The notes beneath the pieces are model-generated. The model had not been told where the DNA came from. It saw nothing but the letters and a program-made list of their open reading frames with translations, and did no database searches. A program made the translations under genes and the position numbers. A DNA stretch of 54,545 nucleotides, taken from the NCBI GenBank assembly GCA_016934215.1, contig JAFGTE010000020.1, positions 1 to 54,545 of the forward strand. Direction: 5' to 3'. The stretch comes from Candidatus Peregrinibacteria bacterium (GTDB lineage: Bacteria; Patescibacteriota; Gracilibacteria; UM-FILTER-43-11). The stretch's first letter is position 1; every line of letters starts with the position of its first letter. Below are positions 42,140-46,929 of this stretch, piece by piece.

Positions 42140-44524
42140 TTAATCTTTCCGCAAGTAAGAAGGAAGATAAATGGGGGATTTTAATCCTTTTACCTTTTTT
42201 ACTATTTCCAAATCCTCCAAATTAGTTTTTCCGTAATAAAGATCTTTCAGATTACCACCTTTCGTAACAAACTCCTTGATCATCTTGTATCCTTTGTAAT
42301 ACACAAAGTCTTTGGTAAAAGCGCCAGGCTTACCTGTATCACCAATGCCCCGCTTCGCCTTCAGTGCCACACGCCAGGCGCGCTCTGAGCCAAAACCAAG
42401 TTCCACAATTCTATGATAAACATCCGTAAAACTACCTCGCATTGCTTCATAAATACCCACGACTGATGAAGCAGGCCAGTACTTCTTAATGGTTTCACTG
42501 GATTCAGTGAGTTCCTGATTATAGACTGCCAGGCCTTCTTCGGTCGTCAGGTAGTCGGCCAGTCCCCGCTGAAAAATTCTGTAAGGCTGGAGTGCTCCAT
42601 TCATAGCCGTAAAAGAATGTGTTTCAATCTCATGGGCAATAGTACCTTTCAGCCGGTCTTCAGAAAAAGTAGCTCCCGCACGAATTAAAATTGTATTTTC
42701 CTTACCGGCAATCGCGTCAGAAACCAGATCTTCTTTCAGGCTGACCCGCCACCCTTTCAAACCATAATCCTGAATCGCTTTTTCAAAAACTTTTTTCGCT
42801 TCTTTAGCAGTAAAAATCTTACCTTTGTCTTTAAATTCCGTCGGCATTGAACTAATTTCTTCAAGCGCTTCCTTCAGCAATTCTTCACTCGGAGCCCCAT
42901 ACAAAGCAATGGATCTTTCCGTGAATTCAGGTAAATCCCGTGCCTCAAGCAACTGAATCTTCCGTGTTATTTCATTGGCTTTCTTCTGCCAGAGAATCCC
43001 AATAGGAGAATCCGGAAATTCAAGACGTTTCAAACGGGAATAAAAATTATTGGGATCAAAAGAAAGAATTTTATATTCAAACTGCGGATTATAAGCAGGA
43101 TCCAATAAAAATTTCGTATTTTCTTCTTTAAGATTGATAGGTTTCAGATGGGAAAGAAGTTTGAGCTGACTATCGATATCAGAAAGTTCAATATCAATCT
43201 TTTGTAGTTCTTTTTCAGTAAAAACACGCACGATTGCCGGTGCCTCTTTTTGCCTTTCTTCAGTCCCGACAGGCACATTCTTGCTGGGATCAATAAGAAA
43301 ATCACGCAGATCCCGTTGGCCGATCAGCATATCATAAGGTTCCCCGGAAAAATCTTTAGTATCGACCACTGTCATCACCTTTTTTCCAACGATACTAAAC
43401 TTACATTTACCAAGCTTATCCAGGCCGATTTGATTTGCAATCTTTTCATCCAGCAGGGATTTTTCGATTTCAGGTTCCGCCTGAGCAATGATTTTAGCCG
43501 TACTTTTTTTACCAATCACTTCTACCCGTTCCATGGTTCCGATCACCGTTTTTTCAACGCCCTTTTCCGTTTTCACTTCAATCTTATGACCGAAAATATC
43601 CTGGGCAATACGTACGCCCTTTTCCGGCGAATTCACTTTGATCCCCTGAACACGCTCCAGCCTTCGGCGCAATGGCGCCATATTGGCCACCTGTACCTGA
43701 AGACCGGCCCGAGCATTGATTTCGAGAAGGACCGGACCCATATGCTTATCGAGTACCATATCGACCGCGGCAAATCCTAAGTTGGTGATGTACTGTACCC
43801 GGGAGGCAATGAGCAAAAAATCTTCCCACTGAGGAATCTTGAGTCCCCGGTGATCCCCAAAGCCCGGAATTCCATCGATCACTTTGTCAAACTGTGTCGC
43901 AAAAGTCAGTTCTCCTTTAGCGATATCGATACCGACCCCAATCCCTCCCATATGAATATTGGCTTTCCCCTGAGAGCTCTCAGTAGGCAGCCGAAGCATG
44001 GCCATCACCGGAATAAGGTTGTGAACCACAACACGAATATCCGGTAATCCTTTATAGGACATCTTTTTCAGAAAATCCGGCGCTTCTAAAAGCTGTTCAA
44101 ATAAAGCCACATCGGAAATGTCCGCAATAGAATAACGACCATCAATAATATCATTGATGTGATTTTCCAGTTCTTCGTATGAAATGACTTCCCCGCTTCC
44201 TTTGATAAAATTCCTCCCTTTTCTTCCATGGATCACTAAAATCCCCTCTCCGCCATAACCCGCATTGGGTTTAACCACAAAACTGTTGGGCAGAGAATTG
44301 AAATCAAAATTAGCAAGTTCTTTTTTACTGTGAATCACACTATAAAGTCTGGCCACCGGTATGCCACGGGCCGCCAGAAAGTTTTTTGTTTTAATTTTAC
44401 TGTCAGCCAGCATAACCGCCTTCTTGGGATTGTAGGCCCTGATATAGATGAGATTCCTGGCATTTATTCCGAGTAAACCCGGATTATGAAAAAACCACAT
44501 AAAAAGTTTTTTATTCTTCAGCAT
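42140..44524 (-). CDS. Triple fusion: RimK-related ATP-grasp ligase, degenerate retropepsin-like domain, DUF1704 metallopeptidase
   Basis: Residues about 1-305 are an ATP-grasp domain of the alpha-L-glutamate-ligase-like group (LGINARNLIYIRAYNPKK, FVVKPNAGYGGEGILVI, LPDIRVVVHNLIPVMAMLRL, GPVLLEINARAGLQVQ), expected to join an amino acid to a peptide or protein using ATP. Residues about 322-415 resemble the RimB/DUF785 retropepsin fold (GTMERVEVIG, YDMLIGQRDLRDFLIDP), but the expected DTGA triad is missing (AKIIAQAEPE). Residues about 425-794 are a DUF1704 domain of the tyrosine-carboxypeptidase (MATCAP) type with the zinc motif HEIETH (His631, Glu632, His636) and TTEEG (Glu662/663). A ligase and a peptidase in one chain suggest adding and removing C-terminal residues (inference). 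It overlaps the upstream PKD-7TM gene by 14 bases. Confidence 0.9.
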   Translation of the reverse strand: MLKNKKLFMWFFHNPGLLGINARNLIYIRAYNPKKAVMLADSKIKTKNFLAARGIPVARLYSVIHSKKELANFDFNSLPNSFVVKPNAGYGGEGILVIHGRKGRNFIKGSGEVISYEELENHINDIIDGRYSIADISDVALFEQLLEAPDFLKKMSYKGLPDIRVVVHNLIPVMAMLRLPTESSQGKANIHMGGIGVGIDIAKGELTFATQFDKVIDGIPGFGDHRGLKIPQWEDFLLIASRVQYITNLGFAAVDMVLDKHMGPVLLEINARAGLQVQVANMAPLRRRLERVQGIKVNSPEKGVRIAQDIFGHKIEVKTEKGVEKTVIGTMERVEVIGKKSTAKIIAQAEPEIEKSLLDEKIANQIGLDKLGKCKFSIVGKKVMTVVDTKDFSGEPYDMLIGQRDLRDFLIDPSKNVPVGTEERQKEAPAIVRVFTEKELQKIDIELSDIDSQLKLLSHLKPINLKEENTKFLLDPAYNPQFEYKILSFDPNNFYSRLKRLEFPDSPIGILWQKKANEITRKIQLLEARDLPEFTERSIALYGAPSEELLKEALEEISSMPTEFKDKGKIFTAKEAKKVFEKAIQDYGLKGWRVSLKEDLVSDAIAGKENTILIRAGATFSEDRLKGTIAHEIETHSFTAMNGALQPYRIFQRGLADYLTTEEGLAVYNQELTESSETIKKYWPASSVVGIYEAMRGSFTDVYHRIVELGFGSERAWRVALKAKRGIGDTGKPGAFTKDFVYYKGYKMIKEFVTKGGNLKDLYYGKTNLEDLEIVKKVKGLKSPIYLPSYLRKD

Positions 44525-46016
44525 GTTTCATGACTTCACGGAAGCGAACGTATTCCATCAGCCTTAAACCGGTCCACCGACCTAGTCCATAGTTAAATAT
44601 AATAAGCAGTAAAATGATTTCCGGATGTCCCAAAATAAGATTCTGAAGATAATGCCATTCCACTACCCAATAACAAATAAGTGATACAACGGTCGTTTCA
44701 AGCATCAGCAGAAAAGCGGCATAAAATCCTTTGCCCCCAAGGGCGCTCACAAATTTTTCCGCCAGTGTCGTCATGATCAGCATCGGGAATACCGCGATAG
44801 AAGCGATAGCTGTAACACCTAAGTAAGTGCCAAGGGCCAAAGTCAGCAAAATGATCAGCGTTGAAAAGGTGAGTACAATCGCAATACGGGGAATATGCAA
44901 CAGGTGAAAACGGTCGAGCAAGGTTCTGACAAAAGCGCCTGAAATGATAATAATGAATAAAATGGCCAGCCCGAATTTAAGACCAAGCGCCAAAAAAGAA
45001 AGCGTGATAATCGAAGGTGTATAGAGGCCAAAAGTAGTAATTCCCACCACCTGCTTCAAAAAAGCAATGATCGTCGCAATAATGGGGAGCATCAGCAAAA
45101 GGACGATGGTGTTACTGGGAATGCCCTTAGAAATCATAAAACTGACCAGATAGGAAATGGAGTTCCATACACTGATCCGGCCCGTCTCCGCATTGATCAG
45201 GCTGTAATCTGAAACACTTTTCTCTAAATCTTCCACAAATTTTGCATCCGTTGCCGCAATAATGAAATTTTTCAGTTCATACTGACGTGTGATAATGATC
45301 TGTTTAGGTTTAATGATGTTGAAATTACCCTGCATAATGCGGCCGAGTGTGCCGATATTTTCTTCCGTGATGACCAAAATGGTTTTGTTGCTCAGAGCAT
45401 CTTGTAGGCTGCTTTCGTCTTTTCCGCTTTCCTGCTGGACCAAACGTGTCATGGCATTGATCCCGCTGCCACGAGTGGTCCAGATAGCCACCGCATCCGC
45501 ATTGATCAAACCGGATAAATTGTCATTGAGTTGTTTATAAAGTGTCTCTTCAGACATGAATGCTGTGGTCGTCTCATAACTCTGGATAACAAAAACAAAA
45601 ATCCCCTCCTCCGCGGCATCCTGTTTGAGATTCTCAACATTTTCCTTTCGCTCGGCAACATCGGTTAAAAGAAAAATCAATTTGTTATAAGCAAAAACTT
45701 CCCGGGCAATGGATTCTTTTTGATTGCCCTGAGTAATGGATAAAGTCACCGTATAACTACCCGCTTTAGCATAAGTATGCACTGCCTCTTCTCCATAAAT
45801 CGTTGTTCCGTCCCCCATTTTCCATTCATAAGTTACAGACTCGCCAGTATCTAAAAGGAAGGAAGATGAGGCGTCAAAGATAATATTTCGATTCACCCGC
45901 ACAATGCTGTCTCCTGCAATGGCGGGACGTATTTTATTGACATCAAATTCCACTGCTTTCGCAACATTTGGAAGGAAAATAAATGCTAATAATAAAGCTA
46001 AAAATAATTTTCTCAT
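44511..46016 (-). CDS. PKD-domain protein with seven C-terminal membrane helices (7TM-transglutaminase-like)
   Basis: Signal peptide (1-21, ending VAKA), a PKD domain (about 28-108, with FDASSS, YEWKMGDGT and VHTYAKAGSYTVTLSI), and a Rossmann-like extracytoplasmic region (about 110-280, with KLIFLLTDVAERKENVENLK and NKTILVITEENIG). About seven membrane helices follow from 300 to 495. The first helices (GITTFGLYTPSIITLSFLAL, then LLHIPRIAIVLTF) match the pattern of the seven-helix module usually attached to inactive transglutaminases. In those systems the membrane protein is found next to RimK-like ATP-grasp genes, as here. The 14-base overlap with the downstream ligase gene suggests fixed stoichiometry. 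It starts 4 bases after ilvE. Confidence 0.85.
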   Translation of the reverse strand: MRKLFLALLLAFIFLPNVAKAVEFDVNKIRPAIAGDSIVRVNRNIIFDASSSFLLDTGESVTYEWKMGDGTTIYGEEAVHTYAKAGSYTVTLSITQGNQKESIAREVFAYNKLIFLLTDVAERKENVENLKQDAAEEGIFVFVIQSYETTTAFMSEETLYKQLNDNLSGLINADAVAIWTTRGSGINAMTRLVQQESGKDESSLQDALSNKTILVITEENIGTLGRIMQGNFNIIKPKQIIITRQYELKNFIIAATDAKFVEDLEKSVSDYSLINAETGRISVWNSISYLVSFMISKGIPSNTIVLLLMLPIIATIIAFLKQVVGITTFGLYTPSIITLSFLALGLKFGLAILFIIIISGAFVRTLLDRFHLLHIPRIAIVLTFSTLIILLTLALGTYLGVTAIASIAVFPMLIMTTLAEKFVSALGGKGFYAAFLLMLETTVVSLICYWVVEWHYLQNLILGHPEIILLLIIFNYGLGRWTGLRLMEYVRFREVMKHAEE

Positions 46017-46020
46017 CGTA

Positions 46021-46929
46021 TTAATTTACATAAGTAAGCCACTTTTTATATTTTGAATGGTTTCCGTTGACCACCTCCATAAAAGCTTTGTAAAGCACCT
46101 GAGTGATCGGCCCCACCTTACCGTTACCGATCTTTTTCTTATCGACTTCACGCACCGGCACCACTTCGGCCGCCGTGCCGGTCAGAAAAACTTCATCGGC
46201 CGCATACAGGTCTTTCAGTTTAAAGGATTTTTCCATTACCTGATACCCCATATCTTTTGCCAGCTTCATAATGGAATCACGGGTGAAGCCCGGCAGAATA
46301 GAACCTTTAGCCGGTGTAATCAATACATGATTTTTCACCATAAAAATATTCTCTCCGGGTCCTTCAGCTACATGGCCTTTATAATCCAGAAAGAGCGCTT
46401 CATCATAACCCGCCTTTTTGACTTCCAGCACGGCCTGAATGGAATTGGCATAGTGTCCGCTGATCTTGGCATCGTGAACTGTGCTTTTAGGGTGAATGCG
46501 CATAAAGGAGGAAGTTTTTACTCTAATACTCTCCGCTTTCAGATAAAGTCCCCAGGGCCAGCAGGCAATAGCTATGTTAACAGGTGCGCCGATAGGATTG
46601 ATGCCCATATGCCCCTCTCCGTACCAGATAAGAGGCCTGATATAACCGCTTTTAATCTCATTCTTTTTCACAAGCCGGATCACTGCATCATGGACTTCTT
46701 TCTCCGAAAAAGGAACTTTGACACCGATAGCCCCCGCGGAATAAAAAAGGCGTTTAATATGATCGGTCAGACGGAAAATAACGGTTCCCTTGGGCGTTTT
46801 ATAAAACCGGATGCCTTCAAACACTCCTGCTCCGTAATGCAGGGTATGGGTAATCAGATGAACCGTGGCTTTTTTCCACGATATAAACTTTCCGTCCATC
46901 CAGACGTATTTCGTGGACTTGAGTTTCAT
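46021..46929 (-). CDS. ilvE: Branched-chain amino acid aminotransferase
   Basis: A fold-type IV PLP enzyme moving amino groups between branched-chain amino acids or keto acids and glutamate. Motifs are HTLHYGAGVFEGIRFY, YIRPLIWYGEGHMGI, the PLP lysine in KISGHYANS (Lys155), EALFLDYKGHVAEGPGENIF and EVFLTGTAAEVVPV. Length (302) is normal. No other valine or leucine genes are in the window, so it may act in catabolism or supply amino acids for the neighbouring ligase; the latter is speculation. It lies between cobO and the PKD-7TM gene. Confidence 0.95.
   Translation of the reverse strand: MKLKSTKYVWMDGKFISWKKATVHLITHTLHYGAGVFEGIRFYKTPKGTVIFRLTDHIKRLFYSAGAIGVKVPFSEKEVHDAVIRLVKKNEIKSGYIRPLIWYGEGHMGINPIGAPVNIAIACWPWGLYLKAESIRVKTSSFMRIHPKSTVHDAKISGHYANSIQAVLEVKKAGYDEALFLDYKGHVAEGPGENIFMVKNHVLITPAKGSILPGFTRDSIMKLAKDMGYQVMEKSFKLKDLYAADEVFLTGTAAEVVPVREVDKKKIGNGKVGPITQVLYKAFMEVVNGNHSKYKKWLTYVN

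Follow-up and report, generated by a model that had tools for sequence, protein, structure and literature searches.

What might one polypeptide do with an amino-acid ligase, the remains of one peptidase and a second peptidase whose active site is complete, and what is the part of the membrane protein encoded beside it? These questions are raised by positions 42140-46016 of contig JAFGTE010000020.1 (assembly GCA_016934215.1) of a Candidatus Peregrinibacteria bacterium, the whole 54,545 nt of which is called the window here. Two genes lie there on the minus strand. One (42140-44524) encodes a 794 amino acid fusion of an ATP-grasp ligase, a degenerate retropepsin and a MATCAP (DUF1704) zinc peptidase, and the other (44511-46016) encodes a 501 amino acid RloB-like membrane partner with a seven-transmembrane (7TM) domain and an encoded C-terminal Glu-Glu (-EE). 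Comparison of relatives leads us to favour, with a probability of roughly one half, the reading that the fusion is a writer and eraser in one chain that acts on the -EE tail of its 7TM partner, the retropepsin being kept as a spacer.

The fused chain and its domains

The original prediction had read a RimK-related ATP-grasp ligase, a RimB/DUF785-like segment and a DUF1704 zinc site with the motif HEIETH from the 794-residue open reading frame, and all three were recovered in Pfam, NCBIfam and profile-profile searches. The RimK/RloC-like ligase domain (residues 23-293, 43646-44458, minus strand like all features of the pair) matches ATPgrasp_ST (PF14397) with an expectation (E) value of 6e-62, a family member by Pfam's own criterion, and residues 14-313 match nearly the full length of TIGR02291 at 277.9 bits, which is below the equivalog cut-off of 314.2. 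Its catalytic ATP-grasp residues are intact, with K85, E268 and N270 in invariant columns across 28 sequences, and its ATP and Mg residues are likewise invariant in 28 relatives with identities down to 32%. At the other end of the chain the MATCAP domain (residues 477-790, 42155-43096) matches PF08014 with an E value of 1.5e-55 (189 bits against a cut-off of 27), and residues 444-793 match the QEGLA family TIGR02421 at 200.7 bits, again below the equivalog cut-off (338.65). A sequence search with the family profile finds human MATCAP (7z5g, E 1e-26) and aligns the zinc motif, the EEG motif and a KRG...DT..PG.F.KD block. The HEIETH motif (HExxxH; residues 631-636, 42617-42634) has invariant H631, E632 and H636, and the TEEGLA sequence at residue 661 (42527-42544) includes the third metal ligand, E663 of the EEG motif, which like G664 is invariant; HExxxH and EG are retained in all 67 MATCAP domains compared.

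The segment between these domains (about residues 314-420, 43265-43585) has no Pfam match alone. Profile-to-profile, it aligns at probability 99.9 (E 6.5e-33) with its counterpart in unfused relatives, and 10 of 14 such counterparts match PF05618 and aspartyl-protease families, so the middle of the chain is a homologue of the RimB/RloA retropepsins. The retropepsin active site IDTGA has become AEPEI in the window (AEPE, residues 349-352 at 43469-43480, stands in place of IDTG) and the flap is deleted, so that neither the DTG nor the flap of PF05618 is present. Invariance of the catalytic residues of the ligase and of MATCAP while the retropepsin between them decays argues for selection on both outer activities.

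No hydrophobic segment, membrane or signal, was found in the fusion chain. Its AlphaFold model has a mean predicted local distance difference test score (pLDDT) of 86 and a low predicted template modelling score, as of domains that are modelled as well folded and loosely arranged, and a Foldseek search with the whole chain finds human MATCAP (E 1e-13) and RimK (5zct, E 1e-9). The 14-base overlap of the two genes noted in the original prediction holds if translation starts at the ATG at 44524, but it is probably an effect of that choice of start, since the starts of relatives match the in-frame ATG at 44500, which gives 786 amino acids and leaves a 10-base gap to the 7TM gene.

Exchange of the eraser and the -EE tail

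Gene neighbourhoods of relatives were collected as 44 loci, then 70 more, and then 60 as a fresh check from which four repeats of earlier contigs were left out. In unfused proteins the middle domain is usually intact, with IDTGA and the flap sequence SxxG...RP. The flap has been lost in 39 of 39 fused chains and in none of 68 unfused ones, and D[TS]G in 35 of 39 fused chains against 5 of 69 unfused; all five unfused losses (to NTG or NTS) are from loci in which a MATCAP gene abuts the ligase gene. Mapped on the ligase tree, fusion takes three changes and so does flap loss, at the same places. Locus L061, the closest unfused sister to the main clade of fused chains, has an intact DTG retropepsin together with a separate, adjacent MATCAP gene. 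RimB and RloA are known to cleave polyglutamate (PMC11957791, PMC12239564), and human TMCPs take off polyglutamate as well as C-terminal residues, Glu among them, and depend on a penultimate Glu (PMC10499314). The pattern in the sequences reads as the replacement of one polyglutamate eraser by another, MATCAP for retropepsin, about three times, and such a repeated exchange is a natural experiment suggesting that both peptidases serve the same role.

Because a substrate was being sought, the C-termini of the 7TM proteins were compared; the -EE of the window's partner is encoded at 44514-44519. In the first set -EE is the end of 41 of the 42 partners whose chain has an inactive retropepsin and of one of the 63 whose chain has an intact one (two fused loci outside this table, L055 and L066, have partners that end in -QE and -EE, respectively). 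In the fresh set all 26 partners of fused chains end in -EE. In 12 genomes the partner gene lies apart from the fusion gene or is rearranged, and 11 of these partners end in -EE and one in -EEV; both of these subsets were collected after the pattern had been noticed. In total, and with the caution that counts are not independent across relatives, -EE is present in 74 of 77 genomes with fused chains, at 12 of 16 loci with an unfused, inactive retropepsin and a nearby MATCAP gene, and at 3 of 72 loci with an intact retropepsin. Two of the three genomes in this last group carry a MATCAP gene, as few other intact-retropepsin genomes searched do. No -EE is present in the classical RloB proteins of Legionella and Aeromonas, which have an inactive transglutaminase, are accompanied by a retropepsin that is separate and intact, and terminate in -KARS and -GKDK. 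By these comparisons the -EE tail tracks MATCAP and not the ligase alone. By parsimony the retropepsin state changes four times on the tree and the tail state five times, in the same direction wherever the changes can be paired.

The sequences that lead up to the shared end are varied (FREVMKHAEE, DNLSNTEE, NNSQEEE and IKKHFQEEE, for example), and some tails are lengthened to EEE or EEEE. The sole unlinked 7TM partner without a terminal -EE, that of L220 (G382:C51:15495-17000), ends in -DDEEV, with a hydrophobic residue after two Glu. Two trivial causes of the -EE end were considered and rejected. It is not an effect of gene overlap or of a ribosome-binding site, because -EE closes every linker, whatever its length and sequence and also where 77-434 bases separate the genes, and is retained by unlinked copies. 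Nor is it a matter of generally Glu-rich C-termini, as only 8 of 1137 other open reading frames in these loci end in -EE.

The membrane partner and the gene pair

The original description of the neighbour as a PKD-7TM protein stands. Following an N-terminal signal or anchor, the partner has a PKD domain (residues 33-100, 45717-45920; Pfam, and Foldseek matches to PKD domains at E 3e-7), an alpha/beta domain and a 7TM_transglut membrane domain (residues 305-495, 44532-45104; PF14402, 112 bits against a cut-off of 25), an arrangement derived from the open reading frame list, Pfam and an AlphaFold model with a mean pLDDT of 83. In a fold search of the PDB with this protein the PKD domain gave the only clear matches; the alpha/beta segment (residues 120-280) has no clear Pfam or PDB match, only weak and scattered fold matches. 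The inactive transglutaminase family PF14400 is absent from the window's partner, which has PKD instead, and is matched by the control RloB proteins of Aeromonas and Legionella; the alpha/beta domain between PKD and 7TM sits in the place of that transglutaminase.

The C-terminal segment of the 7TM partner is Arg/Lys-rich as far as the -EE end, which suits a cytoplasmic end. A plasmid of Halobacterium sp. DL1 (L152:3839-5593) carries a 584 amino acid open reading frame, absent from the PLSDB gene table, that joins 7TM_transglut directly to ATP-grasp and that from its sequence is a natural archaeal RloB-RloC fusion. An ATP-grasp domain must face the side on which ATP is found, and in the Halobacterium protein the 7TM C-terminus runs into that domain, so the 7TM C-terminus should be cytoplasmic and beside the ligase.

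The pairing of the two genes is conserved, as the neighbourhood survey found that in 105 of 108 loci the gene immediately upstream of the ligase encodes a 7TM_transglut protein, and in all 14 genomes searched that have no adjacent 7TM copy one is encoded elsewhere. Among fused loci the RloB-like gene alone is conserved as a neighbour on the same strand, and no further conserved operon gene, such as a possible substrate or a biosynthetic enzyme, was found. The ligase or the peptidase is present in about a third of 287 genomes sampled across the window's phylum and in 177 of 242 genomes of its class; the one-chain form is dominant in the class and recurs in a few other families. The same fused architecture is found in more than 70 independent genomes, which excludes chance.

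Several other features of these neighbourhoods were noted. A branched-chain aminotransferase gene (46021-46929, minus strand) ends 4 bases before the window's 7TM gene; such a gene is upstream of RloB only in close relatives of the window, several of which have it, and reading by eye placed one next to the unlinked 7TM gene of L216. In L188-L192 (families f156, f160 and f164 of the same class) TGA is read as an amino acid, with up to 55 in-frame TGA codons per match, and these loci still keep the fusion and the -EE tail. Reading-frame breaks, due to sequencing error or decay, split the fusion in L058 (5761-8155) and the ligase in L062 (4120-5505). In many unfused loci (L060, L062, L063, L065, L070, L074, L075, L077-L084, L098, L100, L101, L109 and L116) one to four extra ATP-grasp genes follow the ligase gene in a row, as if a multi-step peptide or tail were built.

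A proposed tail cycle, its alternatives and its relatives

We propose that the two genes form a module of the RloBC kind by which the C-terminus of a membrane protein is modified reversibly. To the -Glu-Glu with which its own 7TM partner ends in the cytoplasm, the ATP-grasp domain would attach one or more amino acids (glutamate being the likeliest), and the MATCAP domain on the same chain would trim them off again. The retropepsin, which is a polyglutamate eraser in relatives and has lost its site and flap here, may persist as a structural or regulatory spacer, a role suggested by the fact that RimB stimulates RimK by binding to it (PMC11957791). The PKD-alpha/beta ectodomain and the 7TM core would then report or perform a function in the cell envelope under the control of the tail. 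Domain content, intact motifs, the pairing, the exchange of the eraser and the association of the tail are observations; the amino acid added, the tail as its acceptor and the envelope function are inferred. RimK extends a C-terminal Glu tail (PMC11957791), and the genetics of rloB and rloC in P. aeruginosa point to envelope and hypo-osmotic physiology (PMC12239564). Addition and removal of C-terminal amino acids by one chain, as the original prediction had it, is the best-supported mechanism, predicted from motifs that are intact. Its suggestion that the membrane partner is a sensor or exporter fits less well, as the partner looks more like the target, with an -EE end that is in step with the MATCAP eraser. 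Ribosomal protein S6 was also considered as a substrate and seems unlikely: that of the window's genome has a long charged tail that ends in -DDLNI and has no Glu end, and there is no sign of a role for it. No other RimK was found in the window's genome.

Several observations weigh against this proposal. D[TS]G is kept in 5 of 75 fused chains, among the 16 NTG-type loci that have a MATCAP gene close by, four (L202, L205, L206 and L208) have a partner that does not end in -EE, and L210 combines a tail of -EEE and an intact retropepsin, with no MATCAP gene found. There are only about four to five independent transitions, and a phylogenetic sign test is not significant. Enzyme activity of the fusion is, for any member, a prediction from sequence and fold. 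Finally, the 7TM C-terminus of the Halobacterium fusion is not free, which together with the intact-retropepsin systems that have no -EE suggests that the ancestral substrate differs or that the tail was added later.

The same facts allow three other accounts. The -EE might be a docking ligand held in the MATCAP cleft, tethering the fusion to the membrane and restraining the peptidase until a signal arrives, with the true substrate another protein or peptide. That the tail follows MATCAP and not the ligase alone would be expected of such a ligand, for which a short unmodified tail is fitting, and human MATCAP does recognise -EE-type ends (PMC10499314). When a ligase of C-terminal amino acids has a partner with an acceptor-like end, however, that end is more simply its substrate, and tails grown to EEE or EEEE suit an acceptor better than a fixed ligand, so we consider docking unlikely. 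Somewhat less likely still is that, under osmotic or envelope stress, the module makes and recycles a small amide or an acidic peptide in free form (polyglutamate or a compound like glutathione), with the 7TM protein as transporter and the -EE as a gate or mimic. RimK does make free polyglutamate when stimulated by RimB (PMC11957791), several unfused loci have two to four further ATP-grasp genes, proteobacterial MATCAP genes lie beside genes for a glutathione-synthetase-like ATP-grasp and an N-formylglutamate amidohydrolase, low salt strongly induces a Photobacterium MATCAP gene whose locus number is next to that of gshB (PMC10308900), and Rlo mutants have hypo-osmotic phenotypes (PMC12239564). 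Fused loci, though, have no extra conserved biosynthetic gene, and a free product by itself leaves the conserved -EE, kept even in unlinked genes, unexplained. It is improbable, in our judgement, that the chain is a processing relic held together by gene order alone, its MATCAP or ligase inactive or at work on unrelated substrates. The case for activity is one of sequence, and the TIGR02291 and TIGR02421 scores do fall below their equivalog cut-offs, but a relic would hardly keep its ligase residues invariant in 28 relatives (to 32% identity) and HExxxH/EG in 67 of 67 domains while the retropepsin decays.

The closest known system is RloABC of Pseudomonas aeruginosa (PMC12239564), the classical form of which was also seen in Legionella and Aeromonas, where a 7TM gene likewise adjoins genes for a RimK-like ATP-grasp ligase and a RimB-like retropepsin. 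The Rlo retropepsin is active and secreted by means of a signal peptide; that of the window lies within the ligase chain, is cytoplasmic and degenerate, and is joined by MATCAP, and the window's partner has PKD and alpha/beta domains in place of PF14400 and ends in the -EE tail. The gene pair is, by its sequences, of the Rlo kind even though two defining Rlo features, PF14400 and the secreted active retropepsin, are missing. RimBK and RimABK of Pseudomonas and Desulfotalea, whose known substrate RpsF is modified at its C-terminus, also have an ATP-grasp glutamate ligase and an eraser in one chain, and a purified RimBK hybrid had protease activity, ligase activity on RpsF not being seen (PMC11957791). 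The RimBK eraser, however, is an active N-terminal retropepsin, whereas the RimB-like part of the window's fusion is degenerate and C-terminal to the ligase, and RimBK has neither a membrane partner nor MATCAP. A writer and eraser in one chain, which had been called a new arrangement, therefore has a precedent in RimBK; what is new is MATCAP in place of the retropepsin.

The eukaryotic tubulin carboxypeptidases MATCAP/TMCP (KIAA0895L/KIAA0895) belong to the same peptidase family, with HExxxH and EEG, and act on -EE(Y) tails and polyglutamate in opposition to the ATP-grasp ligases TTL/TTLL (PMC10499314). They are separate proteins with tubulin as substrate, unlike the window's MATCAP, which is fused to its ligase and has the 7TM partner as its proposed substrate. 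Proteobacterial QEGLA (TIGR02421) operons also encode MATCAP beside an ATP-grasp gene. There, MATCAP is preceded by a long N-terminal region, which in Photobacterium is an N-formylglutamate amidohydrolase domain; the ATP-grasp belongs to another, glutathione-synthetase-like family, and no 7TM partner was seen. Such QEGLA genes, with a separate or fused N-formylglutamate amidohydrolase and a glutathione-synthetase-like ATP-grasp, are found at L146:3415-7309, L147:4119-7113 and L148:3463-7207. Since operons of alpha- and gammaproteobacteria also pair MATCAP with an ATP-grasp ligase of a different kind, coupling of ligase and MATCAP extends beyond the bacteria considered here. A search of mainly open literature for DUF1704 with ATP-grasp found nothing (earlier comparative-genomic notes may exist), and as far as we found the MATCAP eraser, its exchange for the retropepsin and the -EE tail are without precedent.

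The -EE tail that co-evolves on the operon partner is a candidate substrate both for RloC-type ligases and for the bacterial MATCAP/QEGLA peptidases. We suggest, more tentatively than the reading of the module itself, that a single bacterial polypeptide writes and erases on the -EE of a seven-helix protein as the counterpart of the eukaryotic tubulin-tail cycle of ATP-grasp ligase and MATCAP, its eraser having been swapped about three times. If this is true, reversible C-terminal modification of a membrane protein would be a new regulatory layer in bacteria, and the eukaryotic tubulin-tail enzymes would have a parallel in prokaryotes that unites ligase and peptidase in a single protein.

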